Below the pieces are notes generated by a model, which worked only from the letters and a program-made list of their open reading frames with translations, was not told the origin of the DNA and ran no database searches. Shown in pieces: positions 19,963 to 32,315 of a stretch of DNA of 32,315 nt. The first letter of the stretch is position 1, and every line of letters begins with the position of its first letter. The stretch lies in contig SLOW01000259.1 in assembly GCA_007132315.1 (NCBI GenBank), positions 1 to 32,315 on the forward strand, written 5' to 3'. The position numbers and the translations under genes are program-made. The stretch is from Opitutales bacterium. Its GTDB lineage: Bacteria; Verrucomicrobiota; Verrucomicrobiia; Opitutales; T3Sed10-336.

Positions 19963-20737
19963 TCAATTGTCGCAGAGGTGATCGAGGATGTATTCAAAAC
20001 TCTGTCGTGCGGAGTCGAAGGGATCGCCGGGGCAGGTGTCCTGTTCGACCGCGAACCATCGGCAGCCGCTTTCCTCGGCGGCGGCGATGATGGGCCGGAA
20101 ATTGATGTTGCCGTTGCCGATTTCGGCGTAGTCGGGTTTCCGCTCTTCGGTGACGCGGTAGTCCTTGAGGTGAATGATGGGAAGCCGCCCCGCTAGTTTG
20201 CGGCACCAGTCTAGCGGACTGGCTCCTCCGTACTGAACCCAGTACGTGTCGATTTCGCCTTGAAGGTAACGGGAATCGGTTTTTTCGAATATCAGATCGA
20301 ATACGGTGCGGTCGCCGATGCGTCGAAACTCGTGATTGTGGTTGTGGTAGGCGAGTGTCAGTCCGGCTTCGTGCAGGACCCCGGCCAGAACGGTTGAGCT
20401 TTTCGATCAGGGCGTGCACCGCGTCGGCCGATCCGAAGTCGATGCCCTTGGGAGCTGGATACGCGGTGATCTCGCAGCCCAGGGCGCGCAGGCGATCCAC
20501 GACTTTTTCCGGCTCGTCGAGAATGGTGCCGGACGGTTCGTGGGTGGCGCATATGCGGAGGCCTTCGCCGTCGGTGATGGAAACGAGTTCCTTTTCGTCG
20601 ATCGGCCCCATACCGCTTACCTGAATGGCACGGTAGCCGATGGCGGCGACTTTCTTGAGGGAGGCGGCGATATCGGCCGGTGTCTTGAGGGCGTTGCGGA
20701 TGGTGTAGGTCTGAAGCGCGATTTGCTCGATTTTCAT
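19963..20737 (-). pseudogene. Sugar phosphate isomerase/epimerase (xylose isomerase-like TIM barrel) with an apparent 1-nt frameshift near 20395-20405
   Basis: Frame 1 reads MKIEQIALQTYTIRNALKTPADIAASLKKVAAIGYRAIQVSG...HALIEKLN. The shifted frame then reads VLAGVLHEAGLTLAYHNHNHEFRRIGDRTVFDLIFEKTDSRYLQGEIDTYWVQYGGASPLDWCRKLAGRLPIIHLKDYRVTEERKPDYAEIGNGNINFRPIIAAAEESGCRWFAVEQDTCPGDPFDSARQSFEYILDHLCDN and stops at 19963. Confidence 0.85.
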
Positions 20738-22141: not shown

Positions 22142-23062
22142 ATGAAACCGGTCCTCTACTTGTTGAGCGGCTGTACCGCAGCCGGAAAGACGGCGCTGGC
22201 CCTGGATTGGGCCGAGCGGAACGGGGCCGAGATCGTGTCGTGCGACGCAATGCTGTTTTACCGGGGGATGGATATCGGAACGGCGAAGCCCTCTGAGGCA
22301 GAGCGTCGTCGGATTCCGCACCACCTGATCGATGTCGCCCCGGTGGATCGCGCGTTCGACGTCGGGCGCTACGCGCACGAGGCGGTTCGGGTGGTCGCAT
22401 CCATCCTGGAACTGGGGAGACGGCCGTTGATTGTCGGCGGCAGCGGATTTTACCTGATGAGCTTTCTGCGTCCGGTGGTGGACGAGGTGACGGTGGATGC
22501 GTCCGCACGAACGCGAGCCGAGGAGATACGGCGGCGGGCGGGGACGGCCGGCCAGCTGGCGGAATTGCGCCGGCTCAATCCGGACGGGCTGGATGGGCTG
22601 GACCCGGTCAATCCCCGGCGCGTGAGCCGCGCCCTGGAGCGTTGCCTGGCGTCGGGGAAGACCCTGCGGGAGCAGCGCGAGGCGTTCCGGAGGTTGCCGC
22701 TGCCTTTCGCCGGGTACGACAAGCGAATTTCTCTGATCGACCGGGACGACGAGGAGTTGAGGAAGCGGGTGCGCGAACGGGCCTTCCGGATGGTCGAGAC
22801 GGGCTTGATCGAGGAGGTCCGCCGTCTGCTCGATCGCGGCATCGGGAACAACCCCGCGGCCGCCCGGGCCATCGGCTACCGGGAAACCATCGCCTGGCTG
22901 CGCGGCTCAGAAGCGGGTGGGCGAAATGAGCTGGCGGAGCGGATCGCGGCCAACACGTGGAAGCTGGTCAAGAAGCAACGCACCTGGTTTCGCAACCAAC
23001 TGCCCGACGCCCGGCGTGTGCCGCTTTCCGGCGACGCGCCCCCGCCGGACCCGTTCACTTGA
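22142..23062 (+). CDS. miaA: tRNA dimethylallyltransferase
   Basis: LLSGCTAAGKTALALDWAERNGAEIVSCDAMLFYRGMDIGTAKPS, HHLIDVAPVDRAFDVGRY, AIGYRETIAWL, VKKQRTWFRNQ. Confidence 0.95.
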   Translation: MKPVLYLLSGCTAAGKTALALDWAERNGAEIVSCDAMLFYRGMDIGTAKPSEAERRRIPHHLIDVAPVDRAFDVGRYAHEAVRVVASILELGRRPLIVGGSGFYLMSFLRPVVDEVTVDASARTRAEEIRRRAGTAGQLAELRRLNPDGLDGLDPVNPRRVSRALERCLASGKTLREQREAFRRLPLPFAGYDKRISLIDRDDEELRKRVRERAFRMVETGLIEEVRRLLDRGIGNNPAAARAIGYRETIAWLRGSEAGGRNELAERIAANTWKLVKKQRTWFRNQLPDARRVPLSGDAPPPDPFT

Positions 23063-23162
23063 GGAAGTATTGATGACTTTTTTCGATCCGGGCTTGCGTC
23101 CGGCCCCGGCGGCGGTCACCTTTATCCGTTTCACGCACCGCGTCGGAATTCCGGACGGGAAA

Positions 23163-23210
23163 TGCGCGGACCCTTTGCGAAGCCGGTTGACGGGTCGCAG
23201 GCTCCGCGCA
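23163..23210 (+). promoter_or_regulatory. Nested hairpin in the leader of rpsL-rpsG-fusA
   Basis: tgcgcgga...tccgcgca (8 bp) enclosing tgcga...tcgca (5 bp) enclosing ccg-gttga-cgg. Confidence 0.35.
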
Positions 23211-23322
23211 AAACGCTTCCCGTTTGAAAAACTGTCAAATTCCGCAAAAAATGACTTGCCCGTCGTTGGACGGCTCCTCATTTTGGTCTCTTTTCACCGA
23301 TTAACCGTAACACGATTCTGGC

Positions 23323-23700
<378 letters not shown>

Positions 23701-23706
23701 ACGATC

Positions 23707-24180
23707 ATGTCACGTCGTCGCAGAGCCGGTCGCAGGCCGATCATTCCCGATTCCCGTTACAACAGCACGTTGGTGACGCAGCTCATCAACATGATCATGG
23801 TTGACGGGAAGAAATCCACAGCCCAGCGCATTGTCTATGGTGCGTTCGAGCGGGTGAGTGAGAAACTCGCCAAGGGAGATCCGGTCGATCTCATGCTGGG
23901 CGCCATGGAAAACATCCGCCCCCGCCTCGAGGTCAAGAGCCGCCGTGTCGGCGGCGCGACCTATCAGGTTCCGGTGGAAGTTCCTTTTGAGCGGCAGCAG
24001 AGCGTCGCCTTCCGGTGGATCATCGCGTCCGCTCGCGGTCGCAAGGGTTTGCCCATGCGCGAAGCGCTGGCGGACGAGATTGTCGATGCTTACAATAACA
24101 CCGGCGCCGTCGTCAAGAAGCGGGAGGACACCCATCGCATGGCGCAGGCCAACCGCGCGTTCGCGCATTTACGCTGGTAG
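23707..24180 (+). CDS. rpsG: 30S ribosomal protein S7
   Basis: [44 protein letters not shown]...[13 protein letters not shown]. Confidence 0.98.
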
Positions 24181-24187
24181 TCAGATT

Positions 24188-26353
24188 ATGCCGAGTTCCG
24201 TCAAACAACACGAGATTTCCGCGGCCAACTGCAAGGCGCGTACCTACCCGATGGAGTTTACCCGCAACATCGGGATTGCGGCGCACATCGACGCGGGAAA
24301 AACCACGACCACCGAGCGTATCCTCTACTATACCGGGGTGGTACACAAGATCGGTGAGGTGCACGATGGCAACGCCGTGACCGACTGGATGGAGCAGGAG
24401 CGGGAACGCGGTATCACCATCACTTCGGCCGCGATTTCGTGTAGTTGGACCAACGCCACCGGTCCCTATGCCGACATCAAACACCAGATCAACATCATCG
24501 ATACGCCGGGACACGTCGATTTCACCGCCGAGGTGGAGCGTTCCCTGCGGGTGCTCGATGGAGCCGTTGCGGTGTTCTGCGCCGTGGCTGGCGTTCAGCC
24601 CCAGTCGGAAACCGTATGGCGGCAGGCGGACAAATACCGGGTTCCCCGCATTGCGCTCGTCAACAAGATGGACCGTGTCGGCGCCGACTTCCTCGGTGCC
24701 GTCAACGATATGCGGGAGAAACTCGGAGCCAACGCCCATCCGCTCTATCTCCCGATCGGCGCGGAAGAGAATTTCAAAGGCCTCGTCGACCTCGTCACCA
24801 TGCAGGCCTACTACTACGACGAGAGTGATCCGCTCGGCGTCAAGTACGACATTAAGGAGATCCCCGACGACCTGAAGGACCAGGCGCGCAAGTACCGCGA
24901 GGCGCTGATCGAAGCGATTTCCGATTACGACGACGTCATTGCCGAAAAGTACTTGGATGGCGCCGAATTCACGGAAGACGAACTCAAGACCGCGATCCGC
25001 AAAGCGACGATTTCGCTCGATTTTGTGGGGGTGATTCCCGGATCCGCCTTCAAAAACAAGGGCGTGCAGCGGGTTCTGGACGCCGTCGTCAATTACCTGC
25101 CCTCGCCGGTCGATATGCCGCCGGTGGAAGGCACCGATTCGGAAGATGAAACGGTCTCCATCCGTCCGGAGGATTCCGGCAAGACCGCCCTTCTCGCGTT
25201 CAAACTGGCGAGCGATCCGTACGTCGGCAAACTGGTTTTTGTGCGCGTGTACAGCGGAACCCTCAAGAAGGGCGACGAAGTGTACAACCCGCGCACCCGA
25301 AGAAAGGAGCGGGTCAGCCGCTTGATGCTGATGAAGTCGAACGCCCGCGAGGACGTCGATGTGGTGTACGCCGGGGATATCTGTGCCGTGATCGGGATCA
25401 AGGATGTCTCCACCGGGGACACCCTGGCTTCCCAGGGGCTCGACATTCGCCTGGAGCCGCCCTCTTTCCCGCAACCGGTCATTTCAATGTCCATCGAGCC
25501 GAAAACCAAGGCCGACCAGGAAAAGATGTCGAACGGCTTGCAGCGTCTGGCCGAGGAGGACCCGACGTTTGTGGTCAGCTCGAACGAGGAAACCGGTCAG
25601 ACCATTATCGCCGGGATGGGCGAGCTTCACCTCGAAATCATCCGCGACCGCCTGTTCCGCGAATTCAAGGTGGAAGCCGATGCGGGCAAACCGCAGATCG
25701 CCTACCGCGAAACCATTACCGGCAAGGCCGATGCCGAAGGCAAGTTCATCCGTCAGTCCGGCGGCCGCGGGCAATACGGTCACTGTGTGATCCGGGTGGA
25801 GCCCAACGAGTCCGGCAAGGGCCCCGAAATTCTCAACAAGATCGTCGGCGGCGTGATCCCGAAGGAGTTCATCAAGCCCACCATGGAAGGAATCACCGAA
25901 GCCTCCCACAACGGGGTGGTCGCGGGTTATCCGGTCATCGACTACAAGGTCGAGATCTACGACGGCAGTTTCCACGAGGTCGATTCTTCGGAAATGGCCT
26001 TCAAGATGGCCGGCATCTTCGCCTTCCGTGAAGCGATGAAAAAGGCCGGCCCGATCCTCCTCGAACCGATCATGAAAGTCGAGGTCACCACGCCCGAGGA
26101 ATACCAGGGCGACATTATGGGCGACCTGAACCGCCGCCGCGGCCGGATTCAGGAAATGGGCAGCAAAGGCAACGTGTGCATCATCAACGCCCAGGTTCCG
26201 CTGGAGACCATGTTCGGTTACGCCACAGACGTCCGGTCGCTCAGCAAGGGCCGGGCCAGCTATTCCATGGAACCCTCCCATTTTGAACAGGTTCCCGCGA
26301 GCCTTCTGGCGAACATCGTGGAAACCTCCTCTCGCGCTCCCGCGAGAACGTAA
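24188..26353 (+). CDS. fusA: Elongation factor G
   Basis: [75 protein letters not shown]. Start set at MPSSVKQHE (24188). Confidence 0.98.
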
Positions 26354-26363
26354 CAGGTGTGTC

Positions 26364-26672
26364 ATGAGCGATCAAAAGATACGAATTAAACTCAGAGGTT
26401 ACGATTACCGGGTCATCGACCAGTCCGCTTCGGATATTGTCGAAACCGCGAAGCGTTCCGGCGCGCGGGTCTCCGGCCCGGTTCCGTTGCCGATCCGGAT
26501 CGTGAAGTACACGGTCAATCGCTCCCCGCACGTGGACAAGAAATCGATGGACCAATTCGAAATGCGCACCCACAAGCGCCTGATCGATATCCTCGATCCC
26601 ACCGCACAGACGGTCGATGAGCTCAAGAAGCTCAACCTGCCGGCCGGGGTGGACATCACCATCAACGTCTGA
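26364..26672 (+). CDS. rpsJ: 30S ribosomal protein S10
   Basis: [46 protein letters not shown]...; ATG at 26364. Confidence 0.98.
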
Positions 26673-26745
26673 GCGCCAACCGTTGTTTGGAGTCCGGAAT
26701 TTAAGCAATACACGAGAGTATAGAACAATACATACAGCGACTAAC

Positions 26746-26788
26746 GTAGGTTGTTAAAAGTATAAACGGGAGCCTCGCTCCCACCTAC
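26746..26788 (+). promoter_or_regulatory. Nested hairpin in the rpsJ-rplC intergenic region
   Basis: gtaggt (26746-26751)... gggagc-ctc-gctccc (26768-26782) ...acctac (26783-26788). Confidence 0.35.
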
Positions 26789-26800
26789 CGCTTAGCAGTC

Positions 26801-27448
26801 ATGAAATTAGCACTATTGGGTAAGAAACTGGGTATGACCCAGATCTACGACAGTGACAACCAGCTGGTTCCGGTCACTGTGATCCAGGCCGGACCATGTC
26901 CGGTTGTCCAGGTAAAGAATCCGGAGCGGGACGGTTACCACGCAATCCAGATCGGGTTTTCGCCGCAAAAGGAATCACGCCTGACCAAGGGCAAACTCGG
27001 CCACATTCGCAAGGTCGGCGTCGACCCGGTTTCACGTCTGCAGGAAATCCGGCTCGGAGAAGCTCCGGAGCAGAAGGAAGGGGACGTCCTCAACGTCTCC
27101 CTGTTCAGTGAGGGTGAATTGATCGACGTGGTGGGCACCACCAAGGGCAAGGGATTCCAGGGGGTGATGAAGCGGTTCCGGACACGGGGCGGTCCGGCCA
27201 GCCACGGTTCGATGACCCACCGGCGGATCGGTTCGATCGGTCTCTGTCAGACACCGGGACATGTCTTTAAGAATCAGAAGATGCCCGGACACATGGGGGC
27301 GGTGCGCCGCACCGTGCAAAATCTCAAAGTGTTGAAAATCGATGCCGAGAAGAACCTTCTGCTGATCCGCGGCAACGTTCCGGGAGCCAACGGCGACACC
27401 GTTCTGGTGCGCGCGGCCAAGAAAACCCGCAAGGCCCAGGCCGCATAA
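26801..27448 (+). CDS. rplC: 50S ribosomal protein L3
   Basis: LLGKKLGMTQIY, VVGTTKGKGFQGVMKR, GSIGLCQTPGHVFKNQKMPGHMG. Confidence 0.98.
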   Translation: MKLALLGKKLGMTQIYDSDNQLVPVTVIQAGPCPVVQVKNPERDGYHAIQIGFSPQKESRLTKGKLGHIRKVGVDPVSRLQEIRLGEAPEQKEGDVLNVSLFSEGELIDVVGTTKGKGFQGVMKRFRTRGGPASHGSMTHRRIGSIGLCQTPGHVFKNQKMPGHMGAVRRTVQNLKVLKIDAEKNLLLIRGNVPGANGDTVLVRAAKKTRKAQAA

Positions 27449-27464
27449 CCGAGAGAGTTGATCG

Positions 27465-28103
27465 ATGAAGTTAAAGGTTTACACAGCGGATGGCTCGTCG
27501 AGCCAGGAGAAAGATTTCCCCGGAATTCCCTCGTTTGAGGGAGGAACGGGACAACAGGCGGTCAAGGACGTGGTCACCGCGATGCGGGCGAATGCCCGCC
27601 AGGGCGATGCCAACACCAAGACCCGCGGCGAAGTCAGCGGGGGCGGCAAAAAGCCCTGGCGCCAAAAGGGGACAGGCAACGCCCGGGCCGGGAGCCGGCG
27701 ATCGCCCATTTGGGTTGGCGGCGGCACGGTCTTCGGACCCCGGACCCGCGATTACTCCAAGAAGGTGAATCGCAGGGTCAAGAGCCTCGCCCTGCGGCGC
27801 GCGTTTTACGATCTGGCCAGCGGAGGCGGCCTCCACGTGATCGAAGAGTTTCGGGTGTCTCCCGCGAAGACGAAGGTTCTGGCCGGGACGCTGGACCGCA
27901 TCGTACCAAAGGGACGTTTGCTGCTGGTGGACGATTCGTTCACCGACGAGACCGTCATGGGCGGGCGCAACATCGCCCGGGCTCAGTTTCAGGAAGCCGA
28001 CACGCTGAACACCTACGATCTCGCCCTCTACCAGAACATCCTGATTTCCGAAAAAGCTCTGGAGCGTCTCCTGAAGCGAATCAACGGAGGAAACGAATCA
28101 TGA
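27465..28103 (+). CDS. rplD: 50S ribosomal protein L4
   Basis: TKTRGEVSGGGKKPWRQKGTGNARAGSRRSPIWVGGGTVFGPRTRDYSKKVNRRVKSLALRRAF. Confidence 0.98.
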   Translation: MKLKVYTADGSSSQEKDFPGIPSFEGGTGQQAVKDVVTAMRANARQGDANTKTRGEVSGGGKKPWRQKGTGNARAGSRRSPIWVGGGTVFGPRTRDYSKKVNRRVKSLALRRAFYDLASGGGLHVIEEFRVSPAKTKVLAGTLDRIVPKGRLLLVDDSFTDETVMGGRNIARAQFQEADTLNTYDLALYQNILISEKALERLLKRINGGNES

Positions 28104-28387
28104 AGTCGCCCGATCAAGTGATCAAGGCGCTGCGGTTGACCGAAAAATCGACCCAGCTTTCAGCCAATACCGGCCAGTACACCTTCGAGGTGTTCGACAG
28201 TGCCGACAGGATTTCCATCAAGAACGCCGTTGAAAAGGTGTTCAAGGTCACCGTTCGACGCGTCAACGTTCTGCGCACCAAGCCGCGCGTCTCGCGCAAC
28301 ATGCGCACCGGGCGCATGGGCCGCAAGAGCGGAATGAAAAAGGCGATCGTGACGCTTCAGGAAGGCGACAAGATCGAGATCGTGTAA
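28100..28387 (+). CDS. rplW: 50S ribosomal protein L23
   Basis: MKSPDQVIKALRLTEKST..., IKNAVEKVFKVTVRRVNVLRTKPR; ATGA overlap with rplD. Confidence 0.96.
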   Translation: MKSPDQVIKALRLTEKSTQLSANTGQYTFEVFDSADRISIKNAVEKVFKVTVRRVNVLRTKPRVSRNMRTGRMGRKSGMKKAIVTLQEGDKIEIV

Positions 28388-28421
28388 GGGTTGTCGAGAC
28401 CCGCGAAGGAGAATAACGACC

Positions 28422-29267
28422 ATGCCTCTCAAGAAATTCAGACCACACACGCCGACTCAGCGCTTCCTGTTGTTGAGCAAGCAGCCGGACCTGGCGGACA
28501 AGCGGCCGGAGAAGCGCCTCGCCAAATCGACCAAAAAGTCGGGAGGACGCAACGCCTACGGACGCATCACCTCGCGCCGACGCGGCGCGGGTCACAAGCG
28601 GCTCTATCGTCGGATCGATTTTCGGCGCGAGAAACTCGATATCCCCGCCCGGGTACAGACTATCGAACACGATCCCAACCGCTCCGCGAATATCGCCCTG
28701 CTGGCGTACCGTGACGGAGAAAAACGCTACATCCTCGCCCCGCGCGGAGTTGCGGTGGGTGACACGCTGATTACCTCGGAAAAGGCGGCGTTCGATTCCG
28801 GCAACTGCATGCCGCTGCGCGTGATCCCGCCCTCAACCAAGATTCACGCCATCGAGATGATTCCGGGCAAAGGCGCCCAAATAGCCCGCTCGGCCGGGAT
28901 GACGGCGCAACTGGTTTCGGTCGATGGCAACCGTGCCACAGTGAAATTGCCTTCCGGAGAAATCCGGATCATCCATGCGGCCTGCCGGGCGACCATCGGT
29001 GAAGTCGGCAACCACGAACACGGCAACGTCATCGAAGGCAAAGCCGGACGTCGTCGCTGGAAGGGGCGCCGGCCGCGCGTGCGCGGCGTGGCGATGAACC
29101 CGATCGACCACCCGATGGGCGGCGGTGAAGGCCGGACCTCGGGCGGCGGACACCCCGTCTCTCCCTGGGGCCAGCTCGCCAAGGGGTACCCGACCCGCCG
29201 GCGCTCGAAGCCGTCCAACGCCTTCATCCTGGTGCGCCGGGACGGAACCAAAGTGAAGAACAAATAA
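28422..29267 (+). CDS. rplB: 50S ribosomal protein L2
   Basis: [72 protein letters not shown]. Confidence 0.98.
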
Positions 29268-29271
29268 GGTT

Positions 29272-29541
29272 ATGGCACGTTCGATCAAAAAAGGATTCTA
29301 CGTCGATCCCTCCCTCCAGGACAAAATCGAGGAGGCGCAGAAAGGTGGCGCCCGCAAACCGGTTCAAACCTGGTCGCGCCGATCGACAATCACGCCCGAC
29401 TTTGTCGGCGTCACGTTTAATGTCCACAACGGCAAGTCTTTTGTGCCGGTGTACGTGACCGAGAACATGGTCGGGCACAAACTCGGCGAATTCGCGCTGA
29501 CCCGTACCTTCAAGGGACACGGTTCCCACACCAAGAAATAA
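29272..29541 (+). CDS. rpsS: 30S ribosomal protein S19
   Basis: [70 protein letters not shown]. Confidence 0.98.
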
Positions 29542-29561
29542 CCCGCCCGCCCGATAGTCCG

Positions 29562-29999
29562 ATGCCGTTCCAAACCAACAGAGTTTTCCGCGCCGCGCGC
29601 TCCTTCCCCCCCGGGAAGGCGGGCCTGGCCGCGCGAACCCTGTGTGGTTGCCTGGCGACGGCGGGGTTCCTTTGCGCGGAACCGGCCGGCGCGGAGCAGG
29701 AGACGCGGGCCTACGAACATCCGGCCTTTGTCGGAGTCGATTCGAGCGCCGTGCATCCGACCCGCGTTCACGACATCGTCTCGACCGAAGTCACCGACTT
29801 GGTCATGCTTCCGGCCGGAGCCGACGCGGGATATCGTCCGGGCATGGTTTGCCGGGTGACTCGCGACGGCGAAGCGGTGGCTGAAATTCTTCTGGTGGAA
29901 GTGCGCGAACACGTCGCGGCTGCCATCATTGTCGGAATCTTTCCCGATCAACTTATCCAGACCGGTGACGCGGTACGCGTCAAAACCGTCCAGCAGTAA
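29562..29999 (+). CDS. Hypothetical predicted exported protein inserted in the S10 operon
   Basis: 145-aa ORF filling the gap between rpsS and rplV. Signal-peptide-like N-terminus (basic RAARSFPPGK, hydrophobic AARTLCGCLATAGFLC, AGA-EQ) and C-terminal PGMVCRVTRDGEAVAEILLVEVREHVAAAIIVGIFPDQLIQTGDAVRV. Confidence 0.7.
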   Translation: MPFQTNRVFRAARSFPPGKAGLAARTLCGCLATAGFLCAEPAGAEQETRAYEHPAFVGVDSSAVHPTRVHDIVSTEVTDLVMLPAGADAGYRPGMVCRVTRDGEAVAEILLVEVREHVAAAIIVGIFPDQLIQTGDAVRVKTVQQ

Positions 30000-30013
30000 C
30001 CTCTATCACGAAC

Positions 30014-30358
30014 ATGGAAATCCAATCGTTAACCAAATACGCCCGAATGTCGCCGAAGAAGGTTCGGGAAATCGTCCTGGAAATCCAGGGGCGCAACGCG
30101 GCGGGCGCGCTGGAGATGTTATCCTTTATCCCCCGCAAGTCGGCGCGCCTGGTGGCGAAGACACTGAAGTCTGCCATAGCGAACGCCGAAAACAACAACA
30201 ATTTGTCCTCGGACGACCTCATCGTGAAGAAGGCCGTCGTCGAGCAGGGGCCGGCTTTTCGCCGTTTCCGCGCCGGCGCCCGCGGAATGGCCAAACCATA
30301 TCGTAAACGGACCAGTCACATCCGGATCGTGCTGAGCGATGAACCGGCAACCAAGTAA
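30014..30358 (+). CDS. rplV: 50S ribosomal protein L22
   Basis: KYARMSPKKVREIVLEIQGRNAAGALEMLSFIPRKSARLVAKTLKSAIANAENN...RARGMAKPYRKRTSHI-type C-terminus. Confidence 0.97.
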   Translation: MEIQSLTKYARMSPKKVREIVLEIQGRNAAGALEMLSFIPRKSARLVAKTLKSAIANAENNNNLSSDDLIVKKAVVEQGPAFRRFRAGARGMAKPYRKRTSHIRIVLSDEPATK

Positions 30359-30364
30359 TTTCCC

Positions 30365-31006
30365 ATGGGCCAAAAAGTAAATCCAATCGGTTTTCGTCTC
30401 CCTATCAACCGGGCCTGGCAATCGCGCTGGTATTCGGACAAGAAGAATTTCGGCCTGCTCCTGCGGGAGGATGAGTTGATCCGCGATCGCCTCCACGAGA
30501 AGCTTCGCTTCGCCGCGGTTCCCCGGATCCTGATCGAGCGCGCCTCCAACCGGGTGCGGGTGAAGATCTTCACCGCGCGCCCCGGCATCGTGATCGGGCG
30601 CAAAGGCCAGGAACTGGAGAAAATCAAGGAAGACCTGGCCAAGATCACCGGCCGCGACATCCTGCTGGATATCCAGGAGGTGAAGAAGCCGGAACTGGAC
30701 GCGCAGTTGGTGGCCGAGAGTGTCGCCCTCCAGCTTGAGCGCCGCATTTCCTTTCGGCGCGCCATGAAGAAGGCCGTGCAGATCGCTGTGAGTCTGGGCG
30801 CGGCGGGGATTCGCATTCAGGTGTCAGGACGCCTCGGCGGCGCCGATATCGCCCGAACCGAATCGCAGCGCTTCGGCAGCGTGCCCCTGCACACCCTGCG
30901 CGAGGAGATCGATTACGGCTTTGCCGAAGGCCGCACCATGTACGGGATCATCGGCGTGAAGTGCTGGGTGTGCGTTCCCGGCGCCGACGGCGACTCCAAT
31001 AATTGA
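30365..31006 (+). CDS. rpsC: 30S ribosomal protein S3
   Basis: MGQKVNPIGFRLPINRAWQSRWYSDKKNF, KIFTARPGIVIGRKGQELEKIKEDL, GRLGGADIARTE. Confidence 0.98.
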   Translation: MGQKVNPIGFRLPINRAWQSRWYSDKKNFGLLLREDELIRDRLHEKLRFAAVPRILIERASNRVRVKIFTARPGIVIGRKGQELEKIKEDLAKITGRDILLDIQEVKKPELDAQLVAESVALQLERRISFRRAMKKAVQIAVSLGAAGIRIQVSGRLGGADIARTESQRFGSVPLHTLREEIDYGFAEGRTMYGIIGVKCWVCVPGADGDSNN

Positions 31007-31049
31007 AAACACGTTAACGACCAGCAGAGAACGCCAGCCTGATTGAGCC

Positions 31050-31463
31050 ATGCCACTACTTCCAAGCAGAACCAAATACCGCAAGGTCCACCGCGGCAGC
31101 CGCGCCGGGAACGCCACTCGGGGCAATGCCTTGTCCTTCGGCGAATTCGGTATTCAGTCCCTGGGACGCGGTTGGATGACCGCCTCGCAGATTGAAGCCG
31201 CCCGTGTTGCCATCACCCGCAATATGAAACGTAAGGGAAAAGTGTGGATTCGGGTGTTTCCGCACAAACCGGTCAGCAAGAAACCGGCCGAGACCCGCAT
31301 GGGGAAAGGCAAAGGCGGCGTGGAATTCTGGGTGGCCGTGGTGCGGCCCGGCACGGTGTTGTTCGAAGTCTCCGGCGTCTCTCCCACCGTGGCCAAGGAG
31401 TCGCTGCGGCTGGCCGACACGAAGCTGCCCTTCCGCTGCCGGTTCATCGCCCGCGAAGCCTGA
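31050..31463 (+). CDS. rplP: 50S ribosomal protein L16
   Basis: [86 protein letters not shown]. Confidence 0.98.
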
Positions 31464-31486
31464 AGGCCCAACCCGGATAATCATCC

Positions 31487-31690
31487 ATGAAAGCATCGGA
31501 AATCAACGAATTGTCCATCGAGGAAATCGGCAAGAAACTCCGCGATTCGCGCGACGAATTGCTGGATCTGCGGTTGCGCAAACAAGCCGGCCAACTCGAG
31601 AAAACCCATGAAATTCGTCTGCTGCGGCGCGATATCGCGCGCTGCCAGACGGTTCTGGCCCGGAAGAAAAAGGCGAGTCCCGCCGCCTGA
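31487..31690 (+). CDS. rpmC: 50S ribosomal protein L29
   Basis: ELSIEEIGKKLRDSRDELLDLRLRKQAGQLEKTHEIRLLRRDIARCQTVL. Confidence 0.93.
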   Translation: MKASEINELSIEEIGKKLRDSRDELLDLRLRKQAGQLEKTHEIRLLRRDIARCQTVLARKKKASPAA

Positions 31691-31712
31691 CGCCAATCAA
31701 CCATTGACCACT

Positions 31713-32018
31713 ATGAGTGAACAGACGCGCAACAAGCGTAAATCCTACACCGGCACCGTTACCAGCAGCTCGGGCGACAAGTCCGTCAAAGTGACGATTC
31801 CGTACAAGATTCCCCACCCGCGCTACCGCAAGACGATCAACCGCAAGACGGTGGTGCACGCCCACGACGAGAACAGCGCGTCCAAGCCGGGCGACAAGGT
31901 GGAGATCATGGAAACCCGCCCACTGAGCAAGCTGAAGCGTTGGCGCATCCTCCGGGTCGTCGAAAGCGCTCCGGGGGGGGCCGTGCCTTCGGGCGCCGAA
32001 GCGGGGGAGGCTTCCTGA
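31713..32018 (+). CDS. rpsQ: 30S ribosomal protein S17
   Basis: [79 protein letters not shown] at 31713. Confidence 0.96.
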
Positions 32019-32040
32019 TTCCAGAAAGGAAAAATCCGTC

Positions 32041-32315
32041 ATGATACAACTTCTCAGCAGCTTACATGTCGCGGACAATACCGGCGCCCGGCGCGCGAAG
32101 ATGATCCGCCGCCTCGGTCAATTGAAAATGACCGCGGGGGTGGGAGACATCGTCGTGGTCAATATCAAGGACAGCGTCACCGACGCCAACGTCAAGAAGG
32201 GCGAAGTGGTCCGTGCCGTGGTGGTGCGCACCAAGGCGCCCATTCGCCGGGCGGACGGCAGCTACCTGCGTTTCGACAGCAACGCGGTGGTGATTCTGGA
32301 TGGCAACAACAACCC
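32041..32315 (+). CDS. rplN: 50S ribosomal protein L14 (truncated by window end)
   Basis: Reading from ATG 32041: [27 protein letters not shown]...[54 protein letters not shown]. Confidence 0.96.

Follow-up and report, generated by a model that had tools for sequence, protein, structure and literature searches.

An undescribed gene for a predicted exported barrel protein in the S10 ribosomal operon of Opitutales and other Verrucomicrobiota

In this study, we explored the conservation, history and possible role of an open reading frame (ORF) found among the ribosomal genes of an Opitutales bacterium. The window, that is, the whole stretch of DNA analysed (32,315 nt), is a single contig of a 2.9-Mb draft genome. 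Few bacterial gene clusters are as conserved as the S10 operon, to which the locus belongs. Here, family matches place the genes of ribosomal proteins L2 and S3 as outer neighbours, flanking those of S19 (rpsS) and L22 (rplV); between the latter two the ORF listing gives a frame with an ATG start, hereafter gene X, separated from the rpsS stop by 20 nt and from the rplV start by 14 nt (table 1). The initial annotation had described a same-strand ORF of this length filling the gap, with spacers of about these sizes, and both the coordinates and the NCBIfam matches of the neighbours agree. Its further statement, that rpsS usually directly precedes rplV, is borne out by the non-Verrucomicrobiota loci returned with rplV as bait, where the gap is mostly 8-58 nt; two Clostridia have gaps of 105 and 115 nt, both devoid of an ORF.

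Table 1. Gene X, its predicted parts and its adjacent genes in the window
Feature	Position	Strand	Evidence
Gene X, 145-aa predicted exported protein	29562..29999	+	ORF; same-slot orthologues in 51/103 order genomes; purifying selection
Predicted Sec signal peptide, residues 1-44, cleavage-like site AGA-EQ	29562..29693	+	Sequence; N-terminal features of relatives; low-confidence, no regular structure in model
C-terminal small beta-barrel, about residues 66-141, FlgT_C/TsaP-C-like	29757..29984	+	AlphaFold2; Foldseek; TsaP profile match
rpsS (30S ribosomal protein S19), upstream of gene X	29272..29541	+	NCBIfam TIGR01050, E 3.2e-39
rplV (50S ribosomal protein L22), downstream of gene X	30014..30358	+	NCBIfam TIGR01044, E 1.5e-31

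Relatives of the gene X protein were recovered by protein search in 24 of 53 near genomes, and all 24 best matches, the window's own included, sit between rpsS and rplV. A profile of 23 gene X sequences (A1), run on 103 genomes of the order in which rpsS and rplV were also searched, placed the gene in this slot in 51, as read from match coordinates and counting one genome (G239) where it is split across two contig ends. Fetched Opitutales loci lacking gene X have an rpsS-rplV gap of -4 to 218 nt. Among 15 pairs with unsaturated dS, dN/dS is 0.10-0.40 overall, far under 1, and 0.05-0.31, in round terms about 0.1, over the last 82 residues (the barrel), the N-terminal part being looser; at the sequence level, gene X is under purifying selection. 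The two comparisons first proposed for this ORF, of selection across orthologues and of same-locus orthologues with conserved C-terminus and signal peptide, thus both came out in its favor. Long chance ORFs do arise in GC-rich DNA, and an antisense ORF of 195 aa (window 29364-29951, minus strand), itself probably such a product of chance, overlaps both rpsS and gene X; yet a spurious reading is refuted by a protein that dozens of genomes keep at the same position, with dN/dS well under 1, and we give it next to no weight. Given this same-place conservation, the dN/dS values and the signal-peptide-like N-termini detailed below, gene X is not a chance ORF, and we hold with high confidence that it is a real, conserved gene with a product predicted to be exported.

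The N-terminus had been read as a signal peptide. In fact, a basic n-region and a hydrophobic run precede an AGA-EQ site at residues 42-46, and by a simple score of our own, other than SignalP, the n-, h- and c-regions of a Sec signal peptide recur in the family: 67 of 71 distinct relatives display such an N-terminus, against 24% of shuffled proteins. On this score export from the cytoplasm is likely, and the mature product is predicted to reside, probably, in the periplasm. The window protein has no lipobox cysteine, and in the relative set a lipobox-like motif occurs only in L045 and L112; no ribosomal family matches the gene X protein, the N-terminus of which is signal-peptide-like.

The C-terminus, likened from the start to FlgT C-terminal-type small beta-barrels, is modelled accordingly. 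An AlphaFold2 model built with 21 sequences has block pLDDT values of 85-98 at about residues 61-140 (barrel about 97) and low confidence before them, so that the structure prediction suggested for the 145 residues yields a confident barrel; in a longer form of the protein found outside the order (L096), the first 145 residues are mostly helical and the same barrel follows. In Foldseek searches FlgT ranks first and second for both forms, with E-values that are weak (at best 1.3e-3 for the window protein and 5.2e-4 for the long form) and with other barrels close behind; the same small barrel class also occurs in F1-ATPase, alanine racemase and MreC. A profile of the C-terminal domains of gene X relatives (A3) matches TsaP along two collinear stretches (E 9.1e-5), and Pfam FlgT_C gives weak matches, at best E 0.0015, to 5 of 21 members. 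No Pfam family matches the window protein itself up to E 10 and no PADLOC family does, nor is any NCBIfam match of long-form members convincing. Taken together, the FlgT ranking, the TsaP profile match and the weak FlgT_C matches place the barrel with FlgT_C/TsaP-C, an assignment that we consider very probable.

This placement holds at the level of the domain, since the LysM domain of TsaP is absent from gene X. TsaP, the type IV pilus secretin-associated protein (PDB 3jc8/3jc9, chain Ta), resembles gene X in its C-terminal domain; yet where the PDB names a LysM domain for TsaP, the corresponding part of gene X is a coiled coil or is missing, and no pilus genes adjoin it. LysM was without a Pfam match at E <= 1 in the window protein, and the families listed for members of the alignments do not include it. 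The FlgT C-terminal domain (Pfam PF16538; PDB 3w1e and 8z5n, the LPHT ring) is the best fold match of short and long gene X proteins alike, whereas FlgT itself carries further domains and has a flagellar role. MreC (Pfam PF04085), also among the fold matches, resembles the long form in its order of parts: an N-terminal export or anchor segment, a coiled coil and a small beta-barrel. Nevertheless, gene X is not MreC: PF04085 is not among the matches listed for the gene X alignments A1, A3 and A4, weak NCBIfam MreC matches occur in few long-form proteins only, and a true MreC is encoded separately in the window's genome. Our literature searches found no description of gene X, a so far unnamed and undescribed S10-operon gene that is widespread in the phylum. 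By description, not by sequence, it can be likened to CT421.2, likewise conserved, hypothetical and group-specific; the paper that reports CT421.2 as the one PVC-wide signature protein does not mention rplV (PMC3444138). An abundant Methylacidiphilum lipoprotein was considered and rejected, its gene lying beside glycosylation/amylase-type genes and ribosomal genes being unmentioned in the text (PMC10260701).

Outside Opitutales, profile matches to gene X fall in longer frames. All 11 of these class loci that were fetched (L045-L055) have gene X between rpsS and rplV, encoding 232-276 aa with a signal peptide, a coiled coil and the same C-terminus as the short form. Among loci recovered with rplV as bait, the long form occupies the same slot in records titled Roseibacillus (L096), Prosthecobacter (L130) and Chthoniobacterales (L111); it does so in Akkermansia-like genomes too, and one locus (L112) has a form of 159 aa. 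In two Victivallales/Lentisphaeria loci (L113, L114) gene X directly precedes rplV and rpsS is gone from upstream, and the S10 operon is thus split there. In the phylum survey, an uneven sample in which many class genomes come from one genus, gene X adjoins rplV in 6 of 13 genomes of the order, 13 of 19 others of the class and 31 of 64 others of the phylum. The comparison of rpsS-rplV neighborhoods thus finds the gene in its slot across much of Verrucomicrobiota. On a tree of the ribosomal proteins L2, S19, L22 and S3, presence at the root requires 21 steps, all losses, and pricing gains like losses gives a minimum of 15; the number of losses is approximate, because several inner nodes are weakly supported. 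A single gain at the base of Verrucomicrobiota followed by about 20 losses is compatible with this tree. The lineage-specific insertion entertained in the initial annotation is contradicted both by the same-slot long form across the phylum and by the tree with root presence. The best explanation for the two forms is that the ancestral gene was long, and that Opitutales lost the coiled coil and kept signal peptide and barrel. Both what gene X is and how old it is are thus well supported. The gene is also useful as a phylum marker in which loss, shortening and relocation are traceable.

Relocation is seen in one Lentisphaeria genus (g161), where gene X has moved out of the ribosomal operon: in three genomes (L166, L169, L170) the gene immediately upstream of it encodes an RND efflux permease, which is an envelope context, and in two what we take to be a DUF3089-like protein, itself without a family match. 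The Lentisphaeria loci L109 and L110, like L113 and L114, show an S10 operon split between rpsS and rplV, and have neither rpsS nor gene X upstream of rplV. One locus titled Akkermansia muciniphila (L102) carries a short gene X of the Opitutaceae type, and the tree places it among Opitutaceae-like loci; it is probably a mislabelled MAG.

No promoter- or terminator-like sites above chance were found between gene X and its neighbors, and together with the short spacing this makes co-transcription likely. Gene X diverges fast in sequence, yet keeps the same slot across the phylum, suggesting a benefit from being expressed alongside ribosomal genes. Overall, we favor, at a probability of roughly 60%, a model where gene X was already part of the S10 operon in the ancestor of Verrucomicrobiota; its product would be exported by Sec, probably to the periplasm, in amounts that follow growth rate owing to co-transcription, and would act there as an envelope scaffold or adaptor. 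The last element derives from the roles of TsaP and FlgT, both of them periplasmic components that surround the secretin and flagellar rings of the outer membrane; by this analogy, gene X may similarly serve outer-membrane assemblies, a function that we propose tentatively, at rather less than even odds. Presence of gene X tracks neither MreC (found in 96 of 103 genomes) nor secretins (99 of 103), and being independent of both it indicates no partner. It would be bolder, and rather unlikely, to see in gene X a phylum-wide, undescribed envelope scaffold with a dose linked to that of ribosomes by its place inside the S10 operon, so that Verrucomicrobiota would couple envelope building to growth rate through operon membership. 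Retained in the S10 operon across a phylum, Akkermansia-like genomes included, gene X is a testable candidate for growth-coupled envelope assembly.

Alternatively, gene X could encode an ordinary envelope protein, functionally untied to ribosomes or growth, whose gene happens to have stayed in the S10 operon because expression there is strong. The fold offers no tie to translation, about 20 losses took place with no other change to the operon, and in one Lentisphaeria genus the gene sits beside unrelated genes; conversely, the exact slot is kept phylum-wide despite fast divergence. We regard this alternative as possible, if somewhat doubtful. The widespread loss of gene X argues against an essential role, and its clean loss in many lineages indicates that ribosomes as such can function without it. 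In a third reading, gene X would act where ribosomes dock on the membrane and tune synthesis or secretion: its position alone speaks for such a factor, while a signal peptide and a periplasmic barrel, as predicted, leave no cytoplasmic part to touch the ribosome, and many members of the order without gene X keep all neighboring ribosomal genes, making the idea improbable. Least probable, short of a spurious ORF, is the idea first suggested for this gene, that it relays signals between envelope state and the synthesis of ribosomal proteins: beyond co-location nothing points to it, gene X has no regulatory domain, no transmembrane signalling part was seen, and no Rfam family matches the operon region (23000-32315). 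A regulatory link of this kind is thus not supported; it is neither upheld nor refuted, and nothing found favors it.

Two further observations concern genes other than gene X. A paralogous family (L025, G003:C115; L173, G305:C90) comprises proteins of about 280-305 aa with an N-terminal membrane segment, a coiled coil and the same barrel; their genes occur either as tandem pairs or singly, in the latter case next to an rsmI-like gene. Elsewhere in the window, a 247-aa ORF on the minus strand (19994-20737) has the look of a sugar-phosphate-isomerase-type protein with its second half out of frame, possibly through a frameshift.
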